A stretch of DNA of 25,385 nucleotides. Source: a virus. Positions 8,747 through 22,103 of this stretch are shown here, one piece after another. Both the position numbers and the translations under genes were made by a program. Below the pieces are notes generated by a model. It had not been told where the DNA came from and searched no databases. It saw only the letters and a list, made by a program, of their open reading frames with translations. Numbering within the stretch: the stretch's first letter is position 1; every line of letters begins with the position of its first letter. The stretch lies in IMG/VR virus record IMGVR_UViG_3300017917_003774, positions 1-25,385 of that record, one strand, 5' to 3'.

Positions 8747-9005
8747 TTAAGATATCTTGAATTTGGAGAATAGATTTAAATATAACCCCAACTTCATCAT
8801 CAGCTTGGAATACACCACCTCGATCAAGTTCTTTTAATTTTTTATCTGAGATTTCAATTGTACGAGATATTCGGTCAAGGTATATTAAATACCCTGCTAA
8901 AATATCTTCTTGTTTCTCATTTTTCTTTAGTAAGTTAAAAGTCGTGAATCCTAAAATCACGACTAAAACTGCTAAAACACAGCAAATAATTATTAAAGCT
9001 ATCAT
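8718..9005 (-). CDS. Small single-pass membrane protein
   Basis: A 95-residue protein with one clear N-terminal transmembrane segment (residues 2-26, ALIIICCVLAVLVVILGF core) followed by K-K-N-E-K and a charged helical cytoplasmic part with likely coiled coil (about 45-90). Topology by the positive-inside rule is N-out, C-in. It overlaps the HD gene start by 4 nt and the sigma factor start by 29 nt, so it is made together with them. Function unknown; it has no catalytic motif. The strong overlaps show that it is a real gene. Confidence 0.8.
   Translation of the reverse strand: MIALIIICCVLAVLVVILGFTTFNLLKKNEKQEDILAGYLIYLDRISRTIEISDKKLKELDRGGVFQADDEVGVIFKSILQIQDILNEFNLRKFD
8940..8964 (-). other. 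Terminator-like hairpin inside the membrane-protein gene
   Basis: An 8-bp perfect stem (AGTCGTGA / TCACGACT, 9-nt loop) followed by TTTT on the minus strand, lying in the codons of the transmembrane segment. It could attenuate transcription between the HD gene and the sigma gene, or be chance. Confidence 0.35.
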
Positions 9006-9796
9006 AAGTTATCTAACATATTTTTTAAACCATCACTTTTAAACGAGCCTAAAGCTTTAGTTTTAGTTGATAATTTTTTAGATGTGTTGGGTTTAGTTCC
9101 CAATGTAAAATTTTCTTTCCCATTCTCCAAGGACTTTTTTTCCCCTCTTAATTTAGGTAACCATTCACGTTCAAATTCAATACGTGATGCCATTAAATCA
9201 ACTTGATGTAATATATAAGGCAAACTAGTTCTTGGTTTTTGTCCTGGAATAAATGAAACAAGATATTTTTTATTTCCTTCATCATATAAGCCATCATGTG
9301 TTTGAATAGCTAACATTTCATTAAAAGTATAAAAAATCCCGTGTGACTGTAATAAATATAATGCCCTATCAGGAACTGAAGAGAATGGTACTTTTTCATT
9401 AAACATATAATCTTCTCCTAATTTATCTTTTCTCCATTGATCAGTTTGGGGGATATATGATTCTTCATTTTCATCTCCCATTTTACCTAAGTCATGATTT
9501 AGAGCTGAAAATACAAGTTCTTCAATAGTAAAAGTAGACATATCACATCCTTCACCTTTCCATAAATTAGCTTGTTTTATAGCACATCGAATAACACGTA
9601 AAACATGTTCAACATAACCACCTGGGAATGCATTGTGATATTCTTTTTTATGTGAAGCAGGCATTAGCATTAAACGATCAGCATATTGCTCATAAAATTC
9701 AATTAATTTTTCTTTACGAGGTTCAGAAATATAATCATTAATGTATCCTATTAATTCATCCCAATTATCTTGGATTTGTTCAGCTGTTAATTTCAT
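9002..9796 (-). CDS. HD-domain metal-dependent phosphohydrolase
   Basis: A 264-residue protein with a full set of HD-superfamily metal ligands: H64 (G-Y-V-E-H), H101-D102 (N-H-D-L-G-K-M), H167-D168 and D200 (H-Q-V-D-L-M). These bind one or two divalent ions and hydrolyse phosphoester bonds in nucleotides or nucleic acids; the substrate cannot be told from sequence. Residues 215-264 are a basic, low-complexity tail. The gene is followed with overlap by the membrane protein and the sigma factor, so it may act in nucleotide metabolism or RNA turnover during late infection. That role is inference; the fold assignment is strong. Confidence 0.88.
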   Translation of the reverse strand: MKLTAEQIQDNWDELIGYINDYISEPRKEKLIEFYEQYADRLMLMPASHKKEYHNAFPGGYVEHVLRVIRCAIKQANLWKGEGCDMSTFTIEELVFSALNHDLGKMGDENEESYIPQTDQWRKDKLGEDYMFNEKVPFSSVPDRALYLLQSHGIFYTFNEMLAIQTHDGLYDEGNKKYLVSFIPGQKPRTSLPYILHQVDLMASRIEFEREWLPKLRGEKKSLENGKENFTLGTKPNTSKKLSTKTKALGSFKSDGLKNMLDNL

Positions 9797-12872: not shown

Positions 12873-13031
12873 CTAACATTTTTGCTTTTTTGATCCTGTG
12901 ATAACTCCATCTTTAAAATAATAAAATTCCAAACCGTCGTCTCCCATGATGGTAAGATTACCGTCATCTAAATTACCATCAAAATTAATAATACGGTCTT
13001 CATTCTACTGCAGAAATTCTATTACTCTCAT
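12873..13031 (-). pseudogene. Small reading frame interrupted by an in-frame amber
   Basis: From ATG at 13031 the frame reads MRVIEFLQ, then TAG (13005-13007), then 43 more residues without interruption (N-E-D-R-I-I-N-F-D-G-N-L-D-D-G-N-L-T-I-M-...) to a TAG at 12873. The part after the first stop looks like real acidic protein with a D-G-N / D-D-G hairpin pattern, and no other start serves it. Likely a gene inactivated by one substitution; amber readthrough or a suppressed codon is the alternative. No promoter module precedes it, only a terminator. Confidence 0.5.
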
Positions 13032-13041
13032 CGACACCGAA

Positions 13042-13059
13042 AGCCCGATCACTCGGGCT
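13042..13059 (-). terminator. Terminator hairpin closing the right-hand region
   Basis: A 7-bp GC-rich perfect stem (AGCCCGA/TCGGGCT, 4-nt loop) 19 nt after the stop of the gene at 13079. On the minus strand it is followed by TTTCGG, a short U-tract, so it is a moderate intrinsic terminator and the last signal of the promoter-array region. Confidence 0.65.
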
Positions 13060-13078
13060 CTAATTTAACTAATTAAAC

Positions 13079-13273
13079 TTAATCATTGAAATGCTGCTCA
13101 CATGTTGCTTGCCATGCTGTCAAGTCATTAATTGATTGCTCAATATCATATTTTACTTTAGCTACATCTAATAATGTTATTTGTTCACTATTATAACCTA
13201 ACGCTTTAATCATTTCAAATACAGCATCAAACTGATCAACTATATTTACATCTTTAATTTTTTCTACTTTCAT
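13079..13273 (-). CDS. Hypothetical 64-aa helical protein
   Basis: MKVEKIKDVNIVDQFDAV..., 64 residues, acidic, predicted mostly helical, ending in a W-Q-A-T-C-E-Q-H-F-N-D segment. Not recognised. Own promoter module upstream and a strong hairpin downstream make it a single-gene unit, the last of the array. Confidence 0.75.
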   Translation of the reverse strand: MKVEKIKDVNIVDQFDAVFEMIKALGYNSEQITLLDVAKVKYDIEQSINDLTAWQATCEQHFND

Positions 13274-13295
13274 ATTACTTTTTTTTAATTATAAC

Positions 13296-13330
13296 TAAAT
13301 ATACGAATTAAATTATATTTGTTATTATCC
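13296..13330 (-). promoter_or_regulatory. GGA-type promoter for the gene at 13273
   Basis: Reference entry for the repeated module. On the minus strand: 8-mer upstream box (here GGATAATA), exactly 19 bp, core TATATTTA, then an A-rich leader to the ATG (22 nt here). If the core is a -7 element like TAnnTTTG, the box lies near -41 to -34. The usual Bacteroidota TTTG is absent. Confidence 0.75.
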
Positions 13331-13415
13331 CATATACAACAAAACTAATCATACCACCTATAACTAAGATACTAATTACTACTTGTTTTGCGTTTTCAAA
13401 TCCTAATTTTTTCAT
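13308..13415 (-). CDS. 35-aa membrane microprotein (paralog of 13954-14082)
   Basis: MKKLGFENAKQVVISILVIG..., 35 residues, one transmembrane segment (about 12-33) after a basic start. It resembles the 42-aa product of 13954-14082: both have a short charged start, then I-x-x-x-L-I/V-x-G-G-x-I-x-F. It has its own module upstream, and its 3' end overlaps the next module. Function unknown. Confidence 0.6.
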   Translation of the reverse strand: MKKLGFENAKQVVISILVIGGMISFVVYGIITNII

Positions 13416-13435
13416 ATTATCTTTTTAATTATAAC

Positions 13436-13470
13436 TAAATATACGAAGTAAAAAAGTGGTAACTTATTCC
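13436..13470 (-). promoter_or_regulatory. GGA-type promoter for the gene at 13415
   Basis: Box GGAATAAG, core TATATTTA, leader 20 nt. The box sits in the loop of the terminator hairpin 13455-13482. Confidence 0.75.
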
Positions 13471-13482
13471 TAAATTACCACT
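13455..13482 (-). terminator. Terminator of the AT-hook gene 13507-13914
   Basis: Stem AGTGGTAA/TTACCACT (8 bp), 12-nt loop, followed on the minus strand by TTTTTT. The loop and downstream arm lie in the promoter of the next gene. Closely similar to the hairpin after the paralogous gene at 17197. Confidence 0.8.
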
Positions 13483-13506
13483 CTACTTATTACTTATTTA
13501 TTAACC

Positions 13507-13914
13507 CTATTCTTCTGTCTTAATTACTTTTGGTCGTCCTAATTTAAATGTTCCATTTAACTTTCTCTCTTCTATTTCTTTCAACCTCATTTGTCTAACA
13601 CTATTCTCATTTATTGGGCGTCCTTTTCTTAACTCACCATTCACTCTCTTCATTTCTAATTCTACTAACCTCTTCTGTCTATTACTCTCATTATTAACTG
13701 GTCGTCCTCGTTTTAACTCACCATTCATTCTTTTAATTTCTAACTCTTTTAACCTTTGTTGTCTTACACTATTTTCATTTACTGGGCGTCCTCTTTTACC
13801 TGTCTCTTTCACTTCCATCCCTTTTAACATTTCTTCTAATACTACACTCTTCATAGTATTCGCTTTAGTAATTCCTGATTCTAACGCTTTTTTAACTAAT
13901 TCATTTCTGTTCAT
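13507..13914 (-). CDS. Tandem AT-hook-like repeat protein (copy 1)
   Basis: A 135-residue basic protein. After an N-terminal helical region (1-40) come three 28-residue repeats of the form G-R-P-[VI]-N-x-x-S-x-R-Q-x-R-L-x-E-[LI]-E-x-[KR]-x-x-N-G-x-x-x-x and a fourth G-R-P at the C-terminal end. The G-R-P core flanked by Lys/Arg is the AT-hook that inserts in the minor groove of AT-rich DNA; the rest of each repeat is a charged helix. Four spaced hooks should give avid binding to A/T tracts, possibly as a nucleoid-like or promoter-binding protein. No other catalytic motif. Paralog at 17197-17529 lacks the N-terminal domain. Confidence 0.85.
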   Translation of the reverse strand: MNRNELVKKALESGITKANTMKSVVLEEMLKGMEVKETGKRGRPVNENSVRQQRLKELEIKRMNGELKRGRPVNNESNRQKRLVELEMKRVNGELRKGRPINENSVRQMRLKEIEERKLNGTFKLGRPKVIKTEE

Positions 13915-13939
13915 AACTTTTATTTTTTTAATTATACAC

Positions 13940-13974
13940 TAAATATACTAACTTTAAATTGAACTATTTATTCC
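13940..13974 (-). promoter_or_regulatory. GGA-type promoter for the gene at 13914
   Basis: Box GGAATAAA, core TATATTTA, leader 25 nt. The box and spacer overlap the last codons of the 42-aa membrane gene. Any product binding AT-rich DNA could act on its own promoter here. Confidence 0.75.
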
Positions 13975-14082
13975 ATTAACAAATACATTATAAATTATTA
14001 AACTAATAAACCCAATTAACCCACCTATTAATAAAATAATTTCAACATTACCTTTTACTAAATTTAAAACTTTACTTTTCAT
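13954..14082 (-). CDS. 42-aa membrane microprotein (paralog of 13308-13415)
   Basis: MKSKVLNLVKGNVEIILLIG..., 42 residues, one transmembrane segment (about 13-35) with G-G-L-I-G-F centre. Paired with the similar microprotein at 13308-13415; the AT-hook gene lies between them. Too short for standard gene calling, but it has a complete promoter module and a proper leader. Confidence 0.6.
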   Translation of the reverse strand: MKSKVLNLVKGNVEIILLIGGLIGFISLIIYNVFVNGINSSI

Positions 14083-14105
14083 CTTTTTATTTTTTAATTA
14101 TACAC

Positions 14106-14140
14106 TAAATATACTAACTATTACTTAATTAATTTATTCC
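14106..14140 (-). promoter_or_regulatory. GGA-type promoter for the gene at 14082
   Basis: Box GGAATAAA immediately follows the stop of the 46-aa gene; core TATATTTA; leader 23 nt. Confidence 0.75.
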
Positions 14141-14281
14141 TTAATAATAACAATCAATAAACTTTTTACAAATATCTTTATCATAAAAATCAAACCTATT
14201 ACCTCTAAAATCATAAAAGAACCACCCAATTAAATTATCAAATTTAATTAACATGCCTCTATACACAAAACTATTATTCAT
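14141..14281 (-). CDS. 46-aa aromatic microprotein
   Basis: MNNSFVYRGMLIKFDNLIGW..., 46 residues, rich in Phe, Tyr, Asp and Lys, no transmembrane span. Alternating strands suggest a small beta structure. It is flanked on both sides by promoter modules, the downstream box starting right after its TAA. Not recognised. Confidence 0.6.
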   Translation of the reverse strand: MNNSFVYRGMLIKFDNLIGWFFYDFRGNRFDFYDKDICKKFIDCYY

Positions 14282-14304
14282 ATTTTTCTTTTTTTAATTA
14301 TAAC

Positions 14305-14339
14305 TAAATATACTAATTATTACTTATTATTTTTATTCC
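14305..14339 (-). promoter_or_regulatory. GGA-type promoter for the gene at 14281
   Basis: Box GGAATAAA one base after the stop of the gene at 14341, core TATATTTA, leader 23 nt. The spacer is nearly identical to that at 14557-14591. Confidence 0.75.
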
Positions 14340-14340
14340 T

Positions 14341-14532
14341 TTAACAATTATTTATCATTAAAGTTAATAAATATTCATATTGTTCTTTTGCTTCAATATT
14401 ACATTCATTTAATCTTTTTTGAATAATTTCAATAGATTTAAAAAAGTCTTTTACTTCATTTTCATTAATAAGTTTATCAATTGTTTCATAACGTTCATCA
14501 TTTAGTTCTTGTACATTAATTAAATTTTCCAT
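14341..14532 (-). CDS. Hypothetical 63-aa acidic helical protein
   Basis: MENLINVQELNDERYETIDK..., 63 residues, Glu/Asn/Ile/Leu-rich and predicted to be two long helices. No recognisable motif. Two Cys residues (one at the very C-terminus) are isolated. Single-gene unit with its own promoter. Confidence 0.75.
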   Translation of the reverse strand: MENLINVQELNDERYETIDKLINENEVKDFFKSIEIIQKRLNECNIEAKEQYEYLLTLMINNC

Positions 14533-14556
14533 CTTTTTCTTTTTTTAATTATACAT

Positions 14557-14591
14557 TAAATATATTAATTATTACTTATTATTTTTATTCC
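14557..14591 (-). promoter_or_regulatory. GGA-type promoter for the gene at 14532
   Basis: Box GGAATAAA, core TATATTTA, leader 24 nt. The box and most of the spacer are read as the last codons (R-N-K-N-N-K) of the next upstream frame. Confidence 0.7.
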
Positions 14592-14667
14592 TTGATTTAC
14601 TAATTAATTTCATAATTAATATTACGTTTAATAATAAACTTAAATAAATAATTTTACCTATTATCAT
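14572..14667 (-). CDS. 31-aa hydrophobic microprotein
   Basis: MIIGKIIYLSLLLNVILIMK..., 31 residues: one hydrophobic segment (about 1-20) then a basic tail. The tail is encoded by promoter bases, so the frame may have lost an earlier stop. Presence of a promoter and leader favours a real gene, but confidence is limited by length. Confidence 0.45.
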   Translation of the reverse strand: MIIGKIIYLSLLLNVILIMKLISKSRNKNNK

Positions 14668-14690
14668 ATTTTTATTTTTTAATTATACAT

Positions 14691-14725
14691 TAAATATATT
14701 AAATCAATTTCATTAAAATTACGCC
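14691..14725 (-). promoter_or_regulatory. GGA-type promoter (degenerate box) for the gene at 14667
   Basis: Box GGCGTAAT, the only one with GGC; core TATATTTA; leader 23 nt. The box lies in the last codons of the gene 14719-14925. Confidence 0.6.
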
Positions 14726-14925
14726 TCCATATTTTCAATCCACACCTCATCCTTTTCACTAACATAATAAATACAAACCCCTTTATAATCAAATCTATAA
14801 TTTAATTTTAAATATTTAATCTCCATATCATCAAACTCATCTAATGTACACTCAATCACTTCACTACACCCTAGATTATTAAATTCGTTAAAATTTAAAT
14901 CAACATAATTTTTTAAGCTCTCCAT
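14719..14925 (-). CDS. Hypothetical 68-aa acidic protein
   Basis: MESLKNYVDLNFNEFNNLGC..., 68 residues, strongly acidic with many Tyr and Asn and mixed strand/helix prediction. No Pro, His or Gln, reflecting few cytosines in the coding strand. No family recognised. Confidence 0.72.
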   Translation of the reverse strand: MESLKNYVDLNFNEFNNLGCSEVIECTLDEFDDMEIKYLKLNYRFDYKGVCIYYVSEKDEVWIENMEA

Positions 14926-14950
14926 ATTTTTATATTTTTTAATTATACAT

Positions 14951-14985
14951 TAAATATACTAAATCAGAGTCACACTTTTATATCC
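14951..14985 (-). promoter_or_regulatory. GGA-type promoter for the gene at 14925
   Basis: Box GGATATAA, core TATATTTA, leader 25 nt. It follows the tandem hairpins at 14994-15063. Confidence 0.7.
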
Positions 14986-14993
14986 CACATTGA

Positions 14994-15013
14994 AAGCCCA
15001 CTTACGTGAGCCT
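14994..15013 (-). terminator. Hairpin, second of a tandem pair
   Basis: Arms of 8 bp with two G-U pairs on the minus-strand RNA (AGGCTCAC / GTGGGCTT, loop GTAA), followed by TTC. It lies directly upstream of the promoter for 14925 and insulates it from 15073-15342. Confidence 0.55.
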
Positions 15014-15041
15014 CCAACGCGTATAATTAAAAAAAAGAAAT

Positions 15042-15063
15042 GGGTTGTTTTCCGGTACAACCC
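15042..15063 (-). terminator. Terminator of the gene 15073-15342
   Basis: Stem GGGTTGT/ACAACCC (7 bp), 8-nt loop, then ATTTCTTTTTTTT on the minus strand: a canonical intrinsic terminator starting 10 nt after the TGA stop. Confidence 0.8.
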
Positions 15064-15072
15064 TAAACCATA

Positions 15073-15342
15073 TCATTCCTGTGTTAACAGTTGTTTATAT
15101 TGTTCCAATGTTTCTGAAATTTTAACCGCATCTCCTTTCACTCCAAAATACCATTTCACATCACTTATCTTCCAGTTACGATGTGGTTTAATTCCTTTAC
15201 TATATAACTTACAATCACGAATTGATATAATCAAATTCCAATACCCAACCGGCATCGCTCCTCCATTCACATTAATAGTTTCACCTAAGTCATTTTGGAA
15301 TTTTGTTCCGTTAATCGATTTAATCATTTGTTCTAATTTCAT
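15073..15342 (-). CDS. Hypothetical 89-aa protein
   Basis: MKLEQMIKSINGTKFQNDLG..., 89 residues. The second half (W-K-I-S-D-V-K-W-Y-F-G-V-K-G-D, then a helix with L-E-Q-Y-K-Q-L-L) looks like a small alpha/beta domain seen in phage accessory proteins, but I cannot name it. Less cytosine-poor than its left neighbours. Followed by two terminators. Confidence 0.75.
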   Translation of the reverse strand: MKLEQMIKSINGTKFQNDLGETINVNGGAMPVGYWNLIISIRDCKLYSKGIKPHRNWKISDVKWYFGVKGDAVKISETLEQYKQLLTQE

Positions 15343-15368
15343 AACCTTTATTTTTTTAATTTATACTT

Positions 15369-15403
15369 TAAATATACTAAATTACTTTAACTGTTTTTGT
15401 TCC
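15369..15403 (-). promoter_or_regulatory. GGA-type promoter for the gene at 15342
   Basis: Box GGAACAAA, which contains GGAAC, the classical ECF-sigma -35 pentamer; core TATATTTA; leader 26 nt. It overlaps the last codons of the gene at 15382. Confidence 0.75.
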
Positions 15404-15600
15404 TCTAAAACTTTCAAACACTCAACACAACCCACTTCTTCTATACCTTCATTACGGGCGTGATTAGTACTTAAAGCGGGCGTACCACAAATATTACCTA
15501 CACCTGACTTATAAGCGTGTGCTGTCCCTGACCAAACATTTCCTTTATTACCAAAAATAGAATAATTTGGTCCTAATTCTTTAATACTAACTTTTTTCAT
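15382..15600 (-). CDS. Small putative zinc-binding protein
   Basis: A 72-residue protein with possible metal ligands: H28, C38 (N-I-C-G-T-P), H47 (S-T-N-H-A-R) and a C-V-E-C knuckle at about 58-61. The pattern C-x-n-H...C-x-x-C in about 25 residues matches small phage zinc-ribbon-like proteins. It may bind nucleic acid or protein; role unknown. Ends in a K/Q-rich tail partly encoded by promoter bases. Confidence 0.75.
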   Translation of the reverse strand: MKKVSIKELGPNYSIFGNKGNVWSGTAHAYKSGVGNICGTPALSTNHARNEGIEEVGCVECLKVLEEQKQLK

Positions 15601-15626
15601 AACATTTATTTTTTTAATTTATACTT

Positions 15627-15661
15627 TAAATATACTAAATAAAAAAATGAAAAAGTCGTCC
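15627..15661 (-). promoter_or_regulatory. GGA-type promoter for the gene at 15600
   Basis: Box GGACGACT, core TATATTTA, leader 26 nt. The box is the 3' arm of the terminator 15653-15672, so one sequence serves both signals. Confidence 0.7.
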
Positions 15662-15672
15662 TTAGACGACTT
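15653..15672 (-). terminator. Terminator of the gene 15677-15985
   Basis: Stem AAGTCGTC/GACGACTT (8 bp, loop TAAG on the minus strand) then TTTC and a T-rich run. Confidence 0.85.
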
Positions 15673-15676
15673 ATTT

Positions 15677-15985
15677 TTAAAACACTAATTTATCAAATGT
15701 AACAGCCTTTGATACTATATTTTCTAAATAATTAGTATCTTCTTCATCATCTTCCCAACTATCACTTATTAAAACTATACCATTCATTTGTTTTTCATTC
15801 CTACATTCATAAAATGTAAAATAATTATACTCTGAATCTGTTTTAATCTTCATTAAATCTTCTTCACTTTCATATAATTCTAAGAATTTTTTATCAAATT
15901 CATCTTCATTAGAACAAGAAATACAATTCATATTTCCTAATTCATCATCTAAACCTTCAAAAATAACTACAACTAAATACTTCAT
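15677..15985 (-). CDS. Hypothetical 102-aa acidic protein
   Basis: MKYLVVVIFEGLDDELGNMN..., 102 residues, very acidic, with a beta-alpha-beta feel (hydrophobic strand 2-9, helix 27-45, strands 55-77). The C-terminus turns basic. Not recognised. Its 5' end lies at the edge of the cytosine-free tract that starts at 15919. Confidence 0.75.
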   Translation of the reverse strand: MKYLVVVIFEGLDDELGNMNCISCSNEDEFDKKFLELYESEEDLMKIKTDSEYNYFTFYECRNEKQMNGIVLISDSWEDDEEDTNYLENIVSKAVTFDKLVF

Positions 15986-16009
15986 AACTTTTATTTTTTA
16001 ATTATACTT

Positions 16010-16044
16010 TAAATATACTAATCAATTTTAATTAAATTTATTCC
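16010..16044 (-). promoter_or_regulatory. GGA-type promoter for the gene at 15985
   Basis: Box GGAATAAA supplies the stop codon (GGAATAA) of the gene at 16038; core TATATTTA; leader 24 nt. Its spacer is nearly identical to that at 16821-16855. Confidence 0.78.
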
Positions 16045-16310
16045 TCATTTATATTAAAATACATATTAATATTTCTACTCATCCTCATCCCCCAACCACT
16101 ATGTCCTTCAATAAACTCAATATTATTTTTACTTAATATATTTTTACACTTTACCCAATTCACTCTACTTCCAATCTCACAATCTCTATAAATCCTAAAA
16201 CTTTCTTTACCACCCCACAATCCCATATAACATAATTTTAAACCATTTCCACAACCATTAAATATCACCTCTAATTCCTCTAATTTTTCTTTTACATTTT
16301 TTTCTTCCAT
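16038..16310 (-). CDS. Hypothetical 90-aa protein in cytosine-free tract
   Basis: A 90-residue protein of unknown family with G-W-G-x-R-x-S and W-x-x-C segments. The coding strand has one C in 273 nt. As a result the protein has no Pro, Gln, Thr or Ala and one His. It ends in E-E because its stop codon is part of the next promoter box. The presence of structured Gly/Trp/Cys positions argues that it is still a folded protein, not junk. Confidence 0.75.
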   Translation of the reverse strand: MEEKNVKEKLEELEVIFNGCGNGLKLCYMGLWGGKESFRIYRDCEIGSRVNWVKCKNILSKNNIEFIEGHSGWGMRMSRNINMYFNINEE

Positions 16311-16332
16311 AATATTTTTTTTAATTATAATT

Positions 16333-16367
16333 TAAATATATTAAATATTATTAAATTTCTTTTATCT
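16333..16367 (-). promoter_or_regulatory. GGA-type promoter (box AGATAAAA) for the gene at 16310
   Basis: The only complete module whose box lacks GG; spacing to TATATTTA is still 19 bp; leader 22 nt. The box is inside the last codons of the next upstream gene. Confidence 0.6.
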
Positions 16368-16797
16368 TCTCTTCAAATATTTCACCAACACTCTCTCTTA
16401 CATCCGTATCTAAATCATACCAATAATCCCAAACCACACCATAACAAGTCAAATCCTCTCCATTATTTTTATCTTTTAAATTCCAACTTTCATCATCTTC
16501 ATCATACTCATAACCTAATTTAATTAAATTCTCTCCAAATCTTTTTCCAAATCTATACATTAATTCTCTATCAATACTATCTCCTAATATCATATTAATA
16601 AAACTATCATCATCTTCATCATTATAATTTTCCTCTAATTCATTAATACATTTAATCCAATAATCATTATCATTTTCTAATTCATTAATTACATCAAATA
16701 CTCCCTCATACATCTCACTACCATTCTCTTTAATTAATTCATTAATTTCTTCTTTAATTCCTTCAATACATTCTTTAACTAAATCTAATCTTTTCAT
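16351..16797 (-). CDS. Hypothetical 148-aa acidic protein in cytosine-free tract
   Basis: A 148-residue, very acidic, mostly helical protein. The coding strand has only 2 C against about 109 G in 447 nt (hand count). The protein contains no Pro, His, Gln or Ala and two Thr. Helices at 1-57 (Glu/Ile/Leu-rich) and 118-148, with a Y-G-V-V-W-D-Y-W-Y-D aromatic patch at 118-127. Acidic helical proteins in phage early regions often mimic DNA or bind host enzymes, but there is no direct evidence here. Confidence 0.75.
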   Translation of the reverse strand: MKRLDLVKECIEGIKEEINELIKENGSEMYEGVFDVINELENDNDYWIKCINELEENYNDEDDDSFINMILGDSIDRELMYRFGKRFGENLIKLGYEYDEDDESWNLKDKNNGEDLTCYGVVWDYWYDLDTDVRESVGEIFEEKIKEI

Positions 16798-16820
16798 TTT
16801 TTCTTTTTTTAATTATACTT

Positions 16821-16855
16821 TAAATATACTAATCAATTTTAATTAAATTTATTCC
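16821..16855 (-). promoter_or_regulatory. GGA-type promoter for the gene at 16797
   Basis: Box GGAATAAA, core TATATTTA, leader 23 nt. Box and start of the spacer are read as the codons R-N-K-F-N and stop of the next upstream gene. Confidence 0.75.
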
Positions 16856-17105
16856 TTATTAAATCTACACAATATTTCTCCCCTAAATTTAAACACCATA
16901 TACTCCTAACCCATTTTCTTTTATTACCCTTAACCCCTACAACCTTACTAATCCCTTCTTTTCCATTAAACCCTTTACATCCTTCTTTTCTTCTCCAATA
17001 ATATAAAGTAATAATAATATCATCTATAATCATATCTTTTTCCCAATATTGATTTATACAATATTCTGTAGTTGAGTTAAGTTGTTCTTCTCTAAAATTT
17101 TTCAT
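16839..17105 (-). CDS. Hypothetical 88-aa basic protein
   Basis: MKNFREEQLNSTTEYCINQY..., 88 residues, basic, with many Trp, Cys and Gly and the run Y-Y-W-R-R-K-E-G-C-K-G-F-N-G. After residue 33 the coding strand has no C at all, so the start of the cytosine-free tract falls inside this gene. The last five codons lie in promoter bases, which suggests that its original stop was lost. Function unknown. Confidence 0.7.
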   Translation of the reverse strand: MKNFREEQLNSTTEYCINQYWEKDMIIDDIIITLYYWRRKEGCKGFNGKEGISKVVGVKGNKRKWVRSIWCLNLGEKYCVDLIRNKFN

Positions 17106-17129
17106 ATTTTTCTTTTTTTAATTATACAC

Positions 17130-17164
17130 TAAATATACAAAAAAAAAGAGTGATAATTTATTCC
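17130..17164 (-). promoter_or_regulatory. GGA-type promoter for the gene at 17105
   Basis: Box GGAATAAA lies in the loop of hairpin 17146-17179; core TATATTTA; leader 24 nt. Confidence 0.75.
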
Positions 17165-17179
17165 TAAACTACCACTCTT
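17146..17179 (-). terminator. Terminator of the AT-hook gene 17197-17529
   Basis: 10-bp stem (AAGAGTGGTA / TATCACTCTT, one G-U pair), 14-nt loop with AGGAATAAA, then nine T. Similar in arms and loop to the hairpin after the paralog at 13507. Confidence 0.85.
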
Positions 17180-17196
17180 TCACCCTTAATTTATCT

Positions 17197-17529
17197 TTAT
17201 CCCGCTATTTCATTTCCATCAATTTTCATCTTTGGTCTCCCTAATTTAAAAGTTCCATTTAATTTTCTTTCTTCTATCTCTCTCATCCTAATTTGTCTTT
17301 TACTTTCTCCATTAATTGGTCTTCCTTTCTTTAACTCTCCATTATTTCTTTTCTCTTCTAACTCTTTTAATCTCATTTGTCTAACACTATCTTCTTTAAT
17401 AGGTCTTCCTTTTTTAACTTCCCCCTTCAATCTTCTTTCTTCTAATTCTTTAATCCTATTTTGTCTTACACTTTCAGGATTAACTGGTCTTCCTAATTTT
17501 TTTACTTCAATAATTTCTTCTTTTTTCAT
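17197..17529 (-). CDS. Tandem AT-hook-like repeat protein (copy 2)
   Basis: A 110-residue basic protein made of three 28-residue repeats (each G-R-P-x-x-x-x-S-x-R-Q-x-R-x-x-E-[LI]-E-x-[KR]...G-x-x-K-K) after a short M-K-K-E-E start, closed by a fourth G-R-P. Same design as the product of 13507-13914, and the last 15 residues of the array (E-E-R-K-L-N-G-T-F-K-L-G-R-P-K) are identical. All four GRP arginines use AGA here, but CGN in copy 1, in line with the cytosine avoidance of this neighbourhood. Expected to bind AT-rich DNA in the minor groove; target unknown. Confidence 0.85.
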   Translation of the reverse strand: MKKEEIIEVKKLGRPVNPESVRQNRIKELEERRLKGEVKKGRPIKEDSVRQMRLKELEEKRNNGELKKGRPINGESKRQIRMREIEERKLNGTFKLGRPKMKIDGNEIAG

Positions 17530-17553
17530 AACTTTTAATTTTTAATTATACAC

Positions 17554-17588
17554 TAAATATATTAATAATTTTTTAATTAAAACATTCC
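17554..17588 (-). promoter_or_regulatory. GGA-type promoter for the gene at 17529
   Basis: Box GGAATGTT, in the last codons of the gene at 17577; core TATATTTA; leader 24 nt. Confidence 0.7.
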
Positions 17589-17804
17589 CCCATCAATAAC
17601 AAATACTTTGGTTTGATCATCATCATCTTCATCCTCATCTACTTCAATTAATCCTTCACCTTCAATCATTACACAATAAATTTGTTCTGTGTATTCAATA
17701 TCATTCAAGTATACCCAATCATCTGGTCCGGTTCCTCTAATTACTATTTCAATGTCTTGATTTTCTACTTTTTGTAATTCCTCGATTAATTCTTTTACTG
17801 TCAT
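17577..17804 (-). CDS. Small phage protein of the MTVKELIEEL type
   Basis: A 75-residue acidic protein starting M-T-V-K-E-L-I-E-E-L, an opening shared by a widespread group of small phage and mobile-element proteins in which the helix is followed by strands D-I-E-I-V-I-R and later V-F-V-I-D-G-G. The Asp/Glu run near 56-64 is unusual. Function unknown. Own promoter upstream. Confidence 0.78.
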   Translation of the reverse strand: MTVKELIEELQKVENQDIEIVIRGTGPDDWVYLNDIEYTEQIYCVMIEGEGLIEVDEDEDDDDQTKVFVIDGGMF

Positions 17805-17828
17805 AACTTTTAATTTTTAATTATACTT

Positions 17829-17863
17829 TAAATATACTATTTATACTCTAACAATTTTCATCC
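17829..17863 (-). promoter_or_regulatory. GGA-type promoter for the gene at 17804
   Basis: Box GGATGAAA directly after the stop of the 47-aa gene, core TATATTTA, leader 24 nt. Confidence 0.75.
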
Positions 17864-17864
17864 T

Positions 17865-18008
17865 TTAAAAATCATTTTTAATCATCTCATCTATTTTATC
17901 TCTTAATTCCTTTAATACTTCAGATGTTAGATCTTCTGATGATAATCCTTCATTCATTATATTAATTAATTCCTGAAATACAAGTTGTTTTTCTTCCTTT
18001 AAATTCAT
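17865..18008 (-). CDS. 47-aa acidic helical microprotein
   Basis: MNLKEEKQLVFQELINIMNE..., 47 residues, two amphipathic helices split by a G-L-S-S-E-D turn. Good coding character, ATG after AAAAAAGTT leader, complete promoter upstream and box immediately after the stop. Not recognised; may dimerise as a helical hairpin. Confidence 0.65.
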   Translation of the reverse strand: MNLKEEKQLVFQELINIMNEGLSSEDLTSEVLKELRDKIDEMIKNDF

Positions 18009-18021
18009 AACTTTTTTATTT

Positions 18022-18056
18022 TAAATATACAATTTTTATTTTAACAATTTTTATCC
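18022..18056 (-). promoter_or_regulatory. GGA-type promoter for the gene at 18008
   Basis: Box GGATAAAA, core TATATTTA, short leader of 13 nt. Confidence 0.72.
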
Positions 18057-18058
18057 TG

Positions 18059-18187
18059 TTAATTATTTCTAATTATACAATCCATACCTACCAATTCAAA
18101 TTTGAATAGGTAACCTTGATGGTAATAAATGATTTGACTGGTTCTCTCCTGTAACCAAAGAAATTCTAAATAACTAATTTTATTCAT
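18059..18187 (-). CDS. 42-aa microprotein
   Basis: MNKISYLEFLWLQERTSQII..., 42 residues, aromatic and with a strand-like second half (Y-L-F-K-F-E-L-V-G-M-D). Unlike its neighbours it uses more C, with W, Q and H codons. Family unknown; supported by promoter, leader and tight spacing to the next module. Confidence 0.6.
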   Translation of the reverse strand: MNKISYLEFLWLQERTSQIIYYHQGYLFKFELVGMDCIIRNN

Positions 18188-18209
18188 AACCTTTATTTTT
18201 AATTTTCTT

Positions 18210-18244
18210 TAAATATACTAATCAGTTTTCATTGAAAATTTTCC
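18210..18244 (-). promoter_or_regulatory. GGA-type promoter for the gene at 18187
   Basis: Box GGAAAATT inside the last codons of the 40-aa gene, core TATATTTA, leader 22 nt. Confidence 0.7.
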
Positions 18245-18344
18245 CCTTGTATTTTTCTTTTCTTGTGTATTTCTTTTTATTTTTATACACATTTGGCCTT
18301 GTCGCCATTTTAATTTCCTGAATTGTTACTTCAATTGTTTTCAT
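18222..18344 (-). CDS. 40-aa very basic microprotein
   Basis: MKTIEVTIQEIKMATRPNVY..., 40 residues. The basic run N-V-Y-K-N-K-K-K-Y-T-R-K-E-K-Y-K resembles endings of several small phage proteins and suggests nucleic-acid or ribosome contact. An internal start (MATRPNVYK) is possible. Function unknown. Confidence 0.6.
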   Translation of the reverse strand: MKTIEVTIQEIKMATRPNVYKNKKKYTRKEKYKGKIFNEN

Positions 18345-18353
18345 TTTTTATTT

Positions 18354-18388
18354 TAAATATACTAAGAAAATTTCATTACCATTTATCC
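18354..18388 (-). promoter_or_regulatory. GGA-type promoter for the gene at 18344
   Basis: Box GGATAAAT, core TATATTTA, leader only 9 nt, the shortest. An imperfect dyad (18366-18402) flanks the box. Confidence 0.68.
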
Positions 18389-18428
18389 TGGTGATGATTT
18401 TCTTTTGACAATTAAAATTTCCTGTTAA

Positions 18429-18473
18429 TTATTTTTTTGGCCTTCCACAGCCACATCCGCCTCCGTTGTTCAT
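18429..18473 (-). CDS. Possible 14-aa Gly/Cys microprotein
   Basis: MNNGGGCGCGRPKK, with ATG after an A-rich AATAAAAAAATG leader and a TAA stop. C-G-C plus G-R-P-K-K (an AT-hook-like end) is striking for random AT-rich DNA, and GC content jumps in these 45 bp. No standard promoter module lies upstream. Could be the end of a degraded gene. Confidence 0.35.
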   Translation of the reverse strand: MNNGGGCGCGRPKK

Positions 18474-18687
18474 TTTTTTATTATACATATGTGGTTTTGT
18501 TGTGTTTTGTATATATTTTTGGAATGTTTTAAGAGTGTTTGGGGCGAAACATGAATGGGTTAGATACCAATTTTTTTCATACCACCCTTATCAATTTTCA
18601 TTTTCCACATACTATTAACAATTTTCATTTTATGTCAATTTTCTATCAATTTTCTTAGTCCACCGTTTTCATTTCAGTCCACATATG
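18474..18687. other. 214-bp gene-free region bounded by 10-bp inverted repeats
   Basis: No gene visible. The ends carry ACATATGTGG (18485-18494) and its inverse CCACATATGT (18679-18688). Inside are repeated CAATTTTCAT-like units (about 18592-18654). There is no promoter of the repeated type. It may be a regulatory or structured RNA region, or a remnant of an insertion. Confidence 0.5.
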
Positions 18688-18882
18688 TCAATCTTCATCT
18701 TTCATTTCTAATCGAGATAATAACTCATCCATCACCAACCATTGTGTACAACATCTTTTTGTACCTTTATCAGTTGAACCATATTCATTCATCATTTCAA
18801 CATAATCATCATGTAATTCCTTTTCATATCTAACTATGATTTTGATGATTTCTTCCTTTGTTATATCTTCGTTATTTTTCAT
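18688..18882 (-). CDS. Small conserved phage protein (YGS-D-K-x-T-K-R type)
   Basis: A 64-residue helical protein. The centre N-E-Y-G-S-T-D-K-G-T-K-R-C-C-T-Q-W matches small phage proteins in which Y-G-S/D-D and T-K-R-x-R/C-x-x-W are conserved, followed by a helix L-L-x-x-L. No promoter precedes it: its ATG is 1 nt past the stop of the 51-aa gene, so both form a unit from the module at 19061. Confidence 0.75.
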   Translation of the reverse strand: MKNNEDITKEEIIKIIVRYEKELHDDYVEMMNEYGSTDKGTKRCCTQWLVMDELLSRLEMKDED

Positions 18883-18883
18883 T

Positions 18884-19039
18884 TTACATTTGTATTAAAT
18901 CAATCATCATTTCCCCTGTTGGTTTTCCATCTTTAGTTATTTCATAATTTGGATCCATTCCACTTATCATAACATGTGATATCAAGTCACCAATTGATTT
19001 GAATTCTGCTTTGTAATAACTACATTTTAAACTATACAT
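18884..19039 (-). CDS. 51-aa hypothetical protein
   Basis: MYSLKCSYYKAEFKSIGDLI..., 51 residues, a helix then a D-P-N-Y-E-I-T-K-D-G-K-P-T-G-E segment that reads like a small alpha/beta domain. First gene of a two-gene unit with 18688-18882. Not recognised. Confidence 0.7.
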   Translation of the reverse strand: MYSLKCSYYKAEFKSIGDLISHVMISGMDPNYEITKDGKPTGEMMIDLIQM

Positions 19040-19060
19040 AATCTTTTTCTTTAATTTACT

Positions 19061-19095
19061 TAAATATACTAATATTATTTTATATTTTCTATTCC
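19061..19095 (-). promoter_or_regulatory. GGA-type promoter for the unit starting at 19039
   Basis: Box GGAATAGA in the last codons of the 50-aa gene, core TATATTTA, leader 21 nt. Confidence 0.72.
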
Positions 19096-19227
19096 CTCAG
19101 TTAATTCATCTACATAAAACCTTACATCTTCTATTTGGGTTTTATTTTTGAATACTATTACTTTTTCCTCTCTAACCATAACAAAGTATTCATTACCTTG
19201 TTCATCTGTGAAATGTATGTCTTTCAT
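19075..19227 (-). CDS. 50-aa hypothetical protein
   Basis: MKDIHFTDEQGNEYFVMVRE..., 50 residues, three to four predicted strands (Y-F-V-M-V, K-V-I-V-F-K) and a C-terminal helix. Acidic. Not recognised. Flanked by modules on both sides; the plus-strand frame across it is a shadow. Confidence 0.68.
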   Translation of the reverse strand: MKDIHFTDEQGNEYFVMVREEKVIVFKNKTQIEDVRFYVDELTEGIENIK

Positions 19228-19250
19228 AATTTTCTTTTTTTATTATACAC

Positions 19251-19285
19251 TGAATATACTATCTATCTCTCTATCAATTTATTCC
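19251..19285 (-). promoter_or_regulatory. GGA-type promoter for the gene at 19227
   Basis: Box GGAATAAA right after the TGA of the gene at 19286; core TATATTCA (one change); leader 23 nt. Confidence 0.72.
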
Positions 19286-19471
19286 TCACCATTCTTCTTC
19301 TTTGGTGATTATTTCTGTTTCCCAATTGATATTTTCTCTCAATATAATACCTTCGTCTCTATGTTCTCCAGTTTGTAATTGTTCAAGTGCTTCCTCTAAT
19401 GTATCTGCTTCAATGAAATACTCTACTACAACGGTTTGTTCCACTTCTGTTTCGAATCTAAATGTTCCCAT
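19286..19471 (-). CDS. DpnD/PcfM-like small protein
   Basis: A 61-residue acidic protein. The pattern Y-F-I-E-A-D-T-L-E-E-A-L-E-Q-L, preceded by a strand V-V-V-E and followed by an acidic I-L-x-E-N-I-x-W-E, is that of the DpnD/PcfM-like small proteins found on phages and plasmids. Their function is not known. Ends in W, close to the promoter box. Confidence 0.7.
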   Translation of the reverse strand: MGTFRFETEVEQTVVVEYFIEADTLEEALEQLQTGEHRDEGIILRENINWETEIITKEEEW

Positions 19472-19490
19472 AACTTTTATTTTTATACTT

Positions 19491-19525
19491 TAAATATACT
19501 AATGTTATTTTAAAATTTATTTTCC
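19491..19525 (-). promoter_or_regulatory. GGA-type promoter for the gene at 19471
   Basis: Box GGAAAATA formed by the stop region of the 53-aa gene, core TATATTTA, leader 19 nt. Confidence 0.72.
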
Positions 19526-19678
19526 TTTACATTTTCTATTTTTAATTATCTCAACATAACTAGTTCCACTATAACCATTTCCAGACCATTTATTTAATTC
19601 TTCAGTTGTTAATGTGTAAGCTAGTTCTTCAATTTCTTCAATTGACATTTTATCGATTTGTTTCGCTGTGTAATTCAT
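19517..19678 (-). CDS. 53-aa hypothetical protein
   Basis: MNYTAKQIDKMSIEEIEELA..., 53 residues: acidic N-terminal helix, then N-K-W-S-G-N-G-Y-S-G-T-S-Y-V-E-I-I, and a basic end K-N-R-K-C-K-G-K. Family unknown. Promoter upstream overlaps a terminator. Confidence 0.68.
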   Translation of the reverse strand: MNYTAKQIDKMSIEEIEELAYTLTTEELNKWSGNGYSGTSYVEIIKNRKCKGK

Positions 19679-19704
19679 AACCTTTATCTTTTTAAATTAA
19701 TACT

Positions 19705-19739
19705 TAAATATACAAAAGCCCTCTTAATAGAGGGCATCC
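19705..19739 (-). promoter_or_regulatory. GGA-type promoter for the gene at 19678
   Basis: Box GGATGCCC, core TATATTTA, leader 26 nt. The terminator 19718-19735 fills box and spacer. Confidence 0.72.
19718..19735 (-). terminator. Terminator of the gene 19742-20062, inside a promoter
   Basis: Stem GCCCTCT/AGAGGGC (7 bp, loop ATTA on the minus strand) then TTTTG and directly TATATTTA. Confidence 0.88.
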
Positions 19740-19741
19740 TT

Positions 19742-20062
19742 TTAAAATTTATCTTTAAACATCAATTTCAATTTATCTTCTATTCCTGAATCTATTAATT
19801 CTTGTTCTTTTTCCATAATTAATTGATCTAAATCAATTCCTAATTCTGATAAGTGTTTTACAAATTTTCTATATTCATCATATCCATTATCAATCTCAAT
19901 TCCTAAAAATTTAACATTTATAACATCCGAACTTAAATCAATATCAATACTATTCCCAGTTATAAATGCTTGATGTACTAATGTTAACTCAATTGCATCG
20001 TTGTTTCCTACTTTTACTTCTGTTTCGAAGTTTACCATTAATGTTTTGCTTGTAATTTTCAT
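19742..20062 (-). CDS. Hypothetical 106-aa protein
   Basis: MKITSKTLMVNFETEVKVGN..., 106 residues; beta-rich first half (L-M-V-N-F-E-T-E-V-K-V, A-I-E-L-T-L-V-H-Q-A-F) and a helical acidic second half (about 60-106). Family unknown. Single-gene unit closed by a strong terminator. Confidence 0.75.
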   Translation of the reverse strand: MKITSKTLMVNFETEVKVGNNDAIELTLVHQAFITGNSIDIDLSSDVINVKFLGIEIDNGYDEYRKFVKHLSELGIDLDQLIMEKEQELIDSGIEDKLKLMFKDKF

Positions 20063-20089
20063 AACCTTTATCTTTTTAAATTTATACTT

Positions 20090-20124
20090 TAAATATACTA
20101 ATTAATTTTTAATAATTTTTATCC
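20090..20124 (-). promoter_or_regulatory. GGA-type promoter for the gene at 20062
   Basis: Box GGATAAAA one base after the stop of the gene at 20125, core TATATTTA, leader 27 nt. Confidence 0.75.
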
Positions 20125-20421
20125 TTATCTACTTGTTACTGATTCAACTTTTGCTGTTCCTGAGTTAATCATCGCTATAACTCCACTCCACATATTTTCA
20201 TCTGCTTCCCATTCAATTTCATGTTTTGGGTGTTTCATTTGCCAATTTGATATTGCGAATCCCATTCCATCTAATTTAAAATCACCCTCTTCATTTTTCT
20301 TAAATCTTAAATAATGAACATTATCACACATACATGATATTGTTTTAAATATTACTTCTCTAGCCCCTTCTTTAATAGTTAATTTTGGTGGGTTCATTAT
20401 CAATTCTCTATATTTACTCAT
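20125..20421 (-). CDS. Hypothetical 98-aa protein
   Basis: MSKYRELIMNPPKLTIKEGA..., 98 residues, alternating strands and helices with C-M-C near residue 31 and W-Q-M-K-H-P-K-H in the middle. No family recognised. The helix at the N-terminus and the hydrophobic strands suggest a small globular cytoplasmic protein. Confidence 0.75.
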   Translation of the reverse strand: MSKYRELIMNPPKLTIKEGAREVIFKTISCMCDNVHYLRFKKNEEGDFKLDGMGFAISNWQMKHPKHEIEWEADENMWSGVIAMINSGTAKVESVTSR

Positions 20422-20442
20422 ATTTTATCTTTTTAATTTATT

Positions 20443-20477
20443 TAAATATACTAAGTTCATTTTATTAAATTTATTCC
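20443..20477 (-). promoter_or_regulatory. GGA-type promoter for the gene at 20421
   Basis: Box GGAATAAA gives the stop codon of the gene at 20471 (GAG GAA TAA); core TATATTTA; leader 21 nt. Confidence 0.78.
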
Positions 20478-20680
20478 TCTATTACTTCAAATAAATCAAA
20501 ATCAATGAAACTTATATCACCATTACCAAATTGTACTTCGGCTATATCTTTAAATGTAGGTATTACATATTGTACTTCATATAAATCACCTTTATTTATT
20601 TCTTCTATTTCCGGGGGCATTATGTCACTACCATCAACATAAACAGCTATTGAACAGTCTTTAATAAATTTTATTTTCAT
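20471..20680 (-). CDS. Small beta-barrel phage protein
   Basis: A 69-residue acidic protein with the order M-K-I-K-F-I-K-D-C ... N-K-G-D-L-Y-E-V ... A-E-V-Q-F-G-N-G ... F-E-V-I. This 'K-x-I-K-D-C then K-G-D' layout is common in small phage proteins with SH3-like barrels. Role unknown. It ends in E-E because its stop is part of the following promoter box. Confidence 0.75.
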   Translation of the reverse strand: MKIKFIKDCSIAVYVDGSDIMPPEIEEINKGDLYEVQYVIPTFKDIAEVQFGNGDISFIDFDLFEVIEE

Positions 20681-20692
20681 CTTTTTTTATTT

Positions 20693-20727
20693 TAAATATA
20701 CGATTTTAATTTTAATAAACTTATTCC
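20693..20727 (-). promoter_or_regulatory. GGA-type promoter for the gene at 20680
   Basis: Box GGAATAAG contains the stop of the gene at 20721; core TATATTTA; leader 12 nt. Confidence 0.75.
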
Positions 20728-21185
20728 TCTACTTTAAGTGCAAACAATATCTTTGCTTTTAATCGGTCACCATCATTTTTATTTCCTATTACAACCCCAT
20801 CAATAACTGAAAATGCATGTCGTTTAACTAAAACAAAATACTTACCTTTAGGGAATCGTTCTAGAAATAAACGTAATGGGATATTAACTGGTTCTTTACC
20901 TTTCTTTTGGTGTATATCTGAACCTGGATAGAGTAGATTTAATTTTGGGATAAGTTTGTATTTAATTCCTAATATGTTATCTCTATTTGATAATTTAATA
21001 GCAGTCCCAAATGTACCTTTACGTGGTTGTCTGCCAAATTCATCAGCTACAAATTTATGAGCTGTGTCGTATTTTAAATTAAATGTGGAAGCGACTGCTC
21101 TAACTACACAATCATTTCTTTCACTTTTAGCTGTTGCGCTTTCATTGTAACCAATAATATGGTCTGCAGAACAAATACTTTTCAT
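20721..21185 (-). CDS. Papain-like (C39-type) cysteine peptidase-like protein
   Basis: A 154-residue protein with a Cys-His-Asp arrangement: N-D-C26-V-V-R-A at the start of a helix and K-R-H123-A-F-S-V-I-D129-G late in the sequence. This spacing and the A-F-x-V-I-D-G-V-V strand are those of small phage proteins related to papain-like / C39 peptidases. Whether it cuts a peptide or an isopeptide bond, and the target, are unknown; a host factor is a reasonable target for an accessory phage gene. No signal peptide. Ends in V-E-E from the promoter-box stop. Confidence 0.7.
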   Translation of the reverse strand: MKSICSADHIIGYNESATAKSERNDCVVRAVASTFNLKYDTAHKFVADEFGRQPRKGTFGTAIKLSNRDNILGIKYKLIPKLNLLYPGSDIHQKKGKEPVNIPLRLFLERFPKGKYFVLVKRHAFSVIDGVVIGNKNDGDRLKAKILFALKVEE

Positions 21186-21212
21186 AACTTATTATTTTTT
21201 AAAATTATGCTT

Positions 21213-21247
21213 TAAATATACGAAAGGCTCTTTAATAAGAGCCTTCC
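21213..21247 (-). promoter_or_regulatory. GGA-type promoter for the gene at 21185
   Basis: Box GGAAGGCT, core TATATTTA, leader 27 nt; terminator 21224-21245 fills box and spacer. Confidence 0.75.
21224..21245 (-). terminator. Terminator of the gene 21266-21649, inside a promoter
   Basis: Stem AAGGCTCTT/AAGAGCCTT (9 bp, 4-nt loop) and TTTCG before the core. Confidence 0.88.
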
Positions 21248-21265
21248 TTTTTATTATTTTTTTAT

Positions 21266-21649
21266 TTATTGCTCAGCTGTTTCTTCGCCTTGCTCTAGCT
21301 CAACAATATCATCTTTATCATCCTTTTCTTCAATTTCAAATTGGCTCAATACTGCATTGATATGACTCATAATTTCATATACATTAACTCCAATACTATC
21401 TAATTCAATTGTATTATTATAGCCAATTGAAAATTCAGCACTGTCCTTATCAACTAAATCATCATAACTATTATTATCTAAACGACGTTCAATTTCATTT
21501 GATAATTCATCAATTAATTCCTCACTTAATGTTGTTACTGTTGTAACATCATCTAATGAATTAATAAGTTCAATCATTTTACTAATATCAACTTGTGATG
21601 ATAATGCTTTTGCTGCTTCTAGCTGCGCTACTAATTCTGCTTTTTTCAT
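21266..21649 (-). CDS. Hypothetical 127-aa acidic helical protein
   Basis: MKKAELVAQLEAAKALSSQV..., 127 residues: N-terminal helix (1-20), a long acidic helical middle with many Ser, Asp and Asn, and an acidic C-terminal tail (about 105-127). No motif recognised. Such acidic, helical proteins could interact with host DNA-binding proteins, but this is speculation. Confidence 0.75.
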   Translation of the reverse strand: MKKAELVAQLEAAKALSSQVDISKMIELINSLDDVTTVTTLSEELIDELSNEIERRLDNNSYDDLVDKDSAEFSIGYNNTIELDSIGVNVYEIMSHINAVLSQFEIEEKDDKDDIVELEQGEETAEQ

Positions 21650-21675
21650 AACTTTTATTTTTTTAAATTAATACT

Positions 21676-21710
21676 TAAATATACTAAATCTATTTTTAAA
21701 ACTTTATTCC
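21676..21710 (-). promoter_or_regulatory. GGA-type promoter for the gene at 21649
   Basis: Box GGAATAAA gives the stop of the gene at 21704; core TATATTTA; leader 26 nt. Confidence 0.78.
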
Positions 21711-22075
21711 TCTAATTCATCTTTTAAAACTTTAACTACATTTTGAAGAGTATATAACATCCACACACCATCTTTATTTAAATAATAAGTATATTCCTCT
21801 CCACTTCGAAAACAATTTCCAAATAAACCTTCAATGTTTAAATAATCTGTTGAATGAAAATCTTCCCCCCTATCTCTACAGTACGCCACTGTATTTTCAG
21901 TTGATTCACCTAATGATGATATATCACCTAATTCAATTAGTTTTTCTAATTTTTCCCTATCATAGTGGTTGTATAATGTTTTACCTACACCACTAACATA
22001 ACCATCAAAATGACAGTAAATTGATTTTACTATACCTGACTCAGTTTCAAGTGCGATTCTACTTCTTGTTGCCAT
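21704..22075 (-). CDS. Conserved phage protein of the MATRSRI type
   Basis: A 123-residue protein that I recognise as a widespread conserved hypothetical of phages: start M-A-T-R-S-R-I-A, then I-Y-C-H-F-D-G-Y-x-x-G-V-G-K-T-L, L-I-E-L-G-D-I-S-S-L, and a C-terminal E-Y-T-Y-Y-L. Function is not established. The G-V-G-K-T resembles a P-loop by chance, but other nucleotide-binding features are absent. Cytoplasmic. Own promoter upstream. Confidence 0.85.
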   Translation of the reverse strand: MATRSRIALETESGIVKSIYCHFDGYVSGVGKTLYNHYDREKLEKLIELGDISSLGESTENTVAYCRDRGEDFHSTDYLNIEGLFGNCFRSGEEYTYYLNKDGVWMLYTLQNVVKVLKDELEE

Positions 22076-22103
22076 AACTTTTATTTTTTTTAAATTTATA
22101 CTT

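Follow-up and report, generated by a model that had tools for sequence, protein, structure and literature searches.

Asymmetry between the two strands of DNA is usually a mild by-product of mutation. According to two papers (PMC3016281, PMC1524935, both citing Kano-Sueoka 1999), the strand bias of bacteriophage T4 is tied to the direction of transcription. The T4 bias and the deamination gradients of mitochondria share with the locus described here a non-template strand richer in G than in C, in a manner that follows gene orientation, together with a partial A-to-G companion signal. However, in these phages C is not just lowered but eliminated, and this within short cassettes of a single locus; its content switches at cassette boundaries, and codons have been lost where a C-to-T change is not viable. 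Hypermutation by AID/APOBEC enzymes likewise changes C to T in transcribed genes, on their non-template strand, but here there is no context signature, no deaminase family was found, the state is one of equilibrium, and CGN and Gln codons have been lost. Rho termination, with its C-rich loading, and anti-Rho factors such as Psu offer a further comparison: a process of this kind would account for selection in RNA against C, and not against G, within transcribed units; however, we found no clear YC signature here. We know of no phage that evades Rho by stripping all C from its messages.

What sets this locus apart is that one letter falls to zero, one gene after another, over stretches of several hundred bases, and that the C-free state is kept while the proteins diverge by 25%. 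Our analysis points to a long-standing, transcript-bounded force against sense-strand C, most likely selection, a reading that we regard as very nearly an even call. If selection is correct, it would imply a hitherto unknown step in the conflict between phage and host, one in which C is read in the RNA (or G in the template). Should mutation be correct instead, the locus would be subject to an unusually strong and locus-specific mutational bias.

A local tract nearly free of cytosine

The DNA that we analysed (the window) is the 25,385-base IMG/VR virus record IMGVR_UViG_3300017917_003774, a fragment of a larger genome. By its predicted genes the window is a piece of an Immutovirus-like myovirus genome: among its products are a T4-like protein of the baseplate wedge, with 45% identity to gp6 of Flavobacterium phage vB_FspM_immuto, and a syntenic HD phosphohydrolase downstream of an array of small genes. 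The order of small-gene array, HD phosphohydrolase and baseplate is common to the window group and immuto, homologues of the wedge protein with 75-85% identity occur in at least 80 uncultured relatives, and in relatives of 95-174 kb nearly all genes lie on the same strand. Genes in the relatives were taken as simple ATG-to-stop open reading frames, and the relatives sampled were few, with some redundancy among them. All window features given below lie on the minus strand.

The coding strand of 15919..17007 contains 3 C in 1089 nt. Our recount returned exactly the three plus-strand G reported in a first-pass annotation of the window, at 16103, 16406 and 16448; the longest C-free coding run is 559 nt (16449-17007), and the other runs are 302 nt and 184 nt. 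Where that annotation spoke of three genes the tract touches four, since it starts within 15677-15985 and stops within 16839-17105. These are an 88-aa gene (16839..17105; 3.0% C, with every C in its 5' part), a 148-aa gene for a very acidic protein (16351..16797; 0.4% C, pI ~4.05, charge -28), a 90-aa gene (16038..16310; 0.4% C, as in its L135 homologue of 82% amino acid identity) and a 102-aa gene (15677..15985; 3.6% C), into whose 5' end the C-free tract reaches. For the 148-aa gene, the annotation was correct both in its coding-strand counts, 109 G against 2 C, and in the complete absence of Pro, His, Gln and Ala from the product, in which Thr occurs twice. It was also right that AT content does not explain the C/G asymmetry.

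The depletion reaches its maximum in the tract, within a broader C-poor zone at 13.2-17.9 kb, which is broken by two C-normal cassettes (15073..15600, ~10% C, each with its own promoter-like motif). Elsewhere in the zone lie a secondary C-poor stretch (13962..14362, with C-free runs of 257 nt and 107 nt) and a 68-aa gene (14719..14925; 2.4% C) whose homologues range from 1.4 to 8.2% C by neighbourhood. The zone is flanked by genes for KRGRP proteins, which carry repeated AT-hook-like motifs: one upstream of the tract (17197..17529; 4.5% C, nearly all of it in Pro and Gln codons) and a second at the downstream end of the zone (13507..13914; 6.9% C). The HD phosphohydrolase gene (9002..9796), a landmark conserved among relatives, lies 6-7 kb downstream of the tract.

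In 2000 shuffles the maximum C-free run was 227 nt when the local, already C-poor 7.5 kb was shuffled and 131 nt for the whole window, and the pattern of ATG followed by 187 non-C letters had 21 matches against 0 in 100 dinucleotide shuffles. With 559 nt observed, the tract is thus not due to chance. Nor does it reflect a genome-wide bias, since genes at 73-9796, on the same strand as the tract, have 11-16% C and since the C-free zone of the 166-kb relative G019 is a single locus; the check for whole-genome skew put forward in the first-pass annotation therefore came out in favor of a local loss. Ordinary genome-wide strand skew and an origin or terminus effect are ruled out because the drop in C is local and switches at cassette boundaries. 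An assembly artefact is unlikely, since the same pattern appears in independent contigs and in four cultured immuto phage records.

Recurrence, cassette boundaries and gene families

C-free sense tracts recur ~3-10 kb upstream of the HD gene in about a dozen uncultured relatives with enough upstream sequence. Examples are runs of up to 977 nt, in L127; runs of 576 and 353 nt in L129; of 527 and 409 nt in L167; and of 355 and 324 nt in L035. A promoter-anchored scan added a sole new locus, L242, with nearly consecutive runs of 568, 301 and 702 nt. Among relatives bearing C-free tracts we saw no G-poor tracts; the depletion is always of C. L149, L155, L162, L198, L199 and L202 are examples of relatives with no C-free zone within their available sequence, and the more distant phages Mel-JY01 and LR756508 have none in the stretches examined. 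Cultured immuto resembles the window in its order of array, HD phosphohydrolase and baseplate, in its gp6 and in having a C-free gene at the same place, but it has a single such cassette, against up to several in the window and its close relatives. Exactly one C-free-type gene is found in all four immuto records. This gene, immuto26A_128 (68330-68686), has 1.4% C, with C at 0/61 synonymous Y sites, and its neighbours are C-normal (8.9% and 14.7% C), so that a single cultured phage makes the question directly testable. Searches of an open-access library turned up no account of phage coding genes that lack C. Genes for 7-deazaguanine DNA modification lie at 44426-51759 in G019 (oriented) and at 18607-37015 in immuto (MW353175).

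Shortly 5' of most array genes we find a promoter-like motif, TTCGTATATT-N3-6-TATAA (307 cases, all of them sequence matches). In the window it precedes the 88-aa cassette at 17118..17141 (TTTTGTATATTTAGTGTATAAT, a sequence match), the 148-aa cassette at 16810..16832 (ATTAGTATATTTAAAGTATAAT, where A replaces the usual C of TTCG), the 90-aa cassette at 16322..16345 (TTTAATATATTTAAATTATAAT) and the 102-aa cassette at 16000..16022 (a sequence match). A terminator-like hairpin lies upstream of the tract at 17145..17180 (AAAGAGTG...CACTCTTT, predicted -17.1 kcal/mol) and another directly downstream of it at 15650..15672 (AAGTCGTC CTTA GACGACTT); several array genes have such a hairpin immediately ahead of the next motif. 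On the minus strand of 13000-25385 more generally, a tandem motif, TTCGTATATT-N-TATAA, stands ahead of most small genes, overlapping terminator-like hairpins or directly adjoining them.

C content switches at cassette boundaries and is set cassette by cassette. Where a C-normal cassette is followed by a C-poor one, C falls from 6.1% upstream of the motif to 1.2% over the 60 nt that open the coding sequence, and in the opposite transition it rises from 2.9% to 7.4%; the UTR-side sequence of C-poor cassettes is likewise C-poor. The C of the motif itself is retained in 47% of copies with flanks below 4% C, compared with 74-87% of copies with richer flanks. Some cassettes in the zone are C-normal despite similar promoter-like motifs, a point against the selective reading. 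We reject cumulative read-through from tandem promoters alone, because a number of the C-free genes come with terminator-like hairpins of their own. In L127, near-identical promoter-region repeats (4655-4700 and 5097-5140) lie on both sides of a KRGRP cassette, which suggests that cassettes may move by recombination at repeated promoter-like sequence.

In the 148-aa family, C stands at 0.4% for the window gene and at 7.3% and 8.4% for its homologues in two relatives. In comparison with its closest homologue (73% identical), the window gene has lost 30 C, of which 21 are now T, and at 15 of these 21 the encoded amino acid is unchanged; the loss is thus mostly synonymous, a point that the first-pass annotation had raised. 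The two residual C lie in Thr codons conserved across all three homologues. The KRGRP family, of which we counted 29 genes, spans 4.5-18% C, and its Arg codons are AGR rather than CGN by 131 : 36 in C-poor copies and by 71 : 126 in C-rich copies. Several relatives carry two KRGRP copies, usually a C-poor one upstream and a C-normal one downstream. Other families are C-free wherever they were found: two 138-aa homologues that are 75% identical both have 0.0% C, and a 66-aa family, present in four genomes, has 1.0% C. Since 75%-identical homologues are both entirely C-free, the state is stable and long held, and not the outcome of a single burst; recent hypermutation is ruled out by the same pair.

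The products of C-poor genes are small, for the most part acidic (their median pI is 4.5, that of control array genes 5.9) and of no recognised families. For the 148-aa protein, searches of Pfam, PHROG and PADLOC gave no convincingly scoring family, its predicted structure (pLDDT 79, moderate confidence) matched no PDB fold, and its family had no match in the genome contigs searched.

Codon usage and the route of cytosine loss

In genes chosen solely for C <1% at codon positions 1+2, only 15/815 (1.8%) of synonymous Y sites carry C, compared with ~20%. We also chose genes only by low third-position C and expressed their codon usage as ratios to control array genes, with a bootstrap over 31 families. 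The ratio is 0.01 (CI 0-0.03) for Arg CGN and 0.26 (CI 0.12-0.42) for Gln; the others are 0.06 for His, 0.16 for Ala, 0.18 for Leu CTN, 0.22 for Ser TCN, 0.23 for Pro and 0.24 for Thr. Ser AGY is up ~2-fold in C-poor genes, with TCN down to 0.17 in that comparison. A C-to-T change in a Gln or Arg CGN codon gives a stop or Cys/Trp. In simple codon models of our own with BLOSUM-based site profiles, neither version of which fits all codons, mutation-selection balance with only C-to-T raised predicts ratios of 0.31-0.77 for CGN and 0.52-0.90 for Gln, and removal of C whatever the product predicts 0.08 and 0.08-0.18. Since CGN and Gln are depleted like other C codons despite what C-to-T would make of them, we hold, on the strength of these models, that C-to-T deamination probably contributes but is not the sole cause of the loss.

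Some site patterns nevertheless match mutation. In pairs aligned with C-normal homologues, where independent sites are few, Gln is kept at 65% against 55% in controls and His at 29% against 64%, a pattern that C-to-T mutation predicts; in the KRGRP pairs, again with few independent sites, Gln is kept at 61% against 70%. Moreover, G3/(A+G) is higher in C-poor genes (0.17-0.24 against ~0.10-0.13), and this A-to-G trend is the expectation from deamination of single-stranded DNA. The dependence of the depletion on neighbouring bases is not sharp, with odds ratios of 0.30-0.43 by 5' base and 0.30-0.57 by 3' base. Residual C preceded by a pyrimidine is mildly under-represented (0.307 against 0.387), and CC is kept through Pro codons.

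Competing explanations and candidate agents

Of the three causes offered in the first-pass annotation, selection against C in the RNA fits best, with the annotation's C-specific nuclease as one candidate agent. The block of small cassettes sits just upstream of what would be the late structural genes, and most cassettes have their own promoter-like motif and some their own terminator-like hairpin; position, size and acidic products suggest that they are probably early host-takeover genes, and their expression may be high. A force against sense-strand C would equally be a force against template-strand G. If C in these messages costs fitness, it would be removed by any route except where a residue or promoter base is indispensable, that is, by C-to-T change, by CGN to AGR, by TCN to AGY, or by loss of Gln, His, Ala and Thr, and transcription-linked deamination probably assists. 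It is possible, with the balance tipped slightly against it, that early messages are kept C-free (or their template G-free) because the phage has adapted to some process, its own or the host's, that depends on C and acts on transcripts as they are made; Rho, an RNase that requires C, and a polymerase slowed by modified template G are examples. Our best guess for the agent, in itself unlikely, is a host process dependent on C in nascent RNA, for example Rho loading, at work before the phage controls the polymerase. Rho loading sites on RNA are C-rich (PMC6391919), so that C-free, G-containing messages could escape; the YC signature expected under such evasion is weak, and a C-dependent RNase would be equally compatible as agent.

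How far could mutation alone go? Intense early transcription of a few templates might leave the displaced non-template strand open to deamination of C, and of some A, until C reaches zero. We think this unlikely as the whole explanation, yet it accounts for much: the 21 of 30 lost C now read as T, these genes also show a higher G3/(A+G), C drops gradually along the array toward its peak of depletion in G008 and G012, the depleted strand is always the coding one with the change at cassette boundaries, Gln is retained and His lost in aligned pairs, and T4 provides a precedent for strand bias by transcription direction. However, the depletion of Gln and Arg CGN far exceeds the reach of C-to-T, which also tells against the annotation's transcription-linked deamination as the full cause. 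Moreover, the synonymous C:T counts of 15:800 and 2:523 in the lowest groups need a bias of at least 20-fold, and there is no C depletion in the late structural genes of that genome, whose expression is presumably high. A mutational process that stripped C in all directions would lead to the same equilibrium as selection would. A selective cost of a different kind, the nucleotide cost of transcription, is ruled out, since a model of it has selection favouring U and C at synonymous sites (PMC4844684), the opposite of what we see.

Avoidance of template guanine, whereby DNA G modified to 7-deazaguanine would slow the unmodified host polymerase unless early cassettes were poor in template G, is improbable. 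DpdA, QueC, QueD, QueE and FolE homologues are encoded in G019, G017 and G020 and annotated in immuto, and the force is specific to C, spares coding-strand G and shows no path dependence; but G020 has these genes without a C-free zone, the modification genes fall outside the coverage of the window fragment, and we found no report of a slowed polymerase (PMC6884629 covers effects on DNA-binding proteins only). An AID/APOBEC-like C deaminase of phage or host acting on the transcribed cassettes is very improbable: the extreme non-template C-to-T bias resembles AID-type targeting, but there is no sharp sequence context, the shifts from CGN to AGR and TCN to AGY are not C-to-T, the C-free state is stable over deep divergence, and PF00383 had no match in five large phage relatives (G019, G020, G008, G011 and G012), although a host enzyme is possible. 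As a sole cause, a deaminase is disfavoured by the codon result. The annotation's remaining cause, by which cassettes would have come by horizontal transfer out of some C-poor genome, is scarcely credible. Cassettes are indeed shuffled among genomes and the gene content of the zone varies, but elsewhere, in another genome or at another position, members of these families are C-normal, C follows cassette and neighbourhood within families, as the ranges of the 148-aa and KRGRP families indicate, and no outside source was found, the small-gene families probed being unmatched in the phage and bacterial collections searched.

Apart from the force against sense-strand C that we favor, two features of the relatives deserve mention. 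In L127, a hairpin, GTGAGCCCGAGCAATCGGGCTTTCGGGG, is repeated at 5060-5090 and 5440-5475, within the C-rich stretch that separates the array from the HD gene. Finally, tRNA matches of 126-129 nt, longer than a normal tRNA and perhaps containing an insert or intron, occur at L170:6391-6519 and L129:6564-6689.
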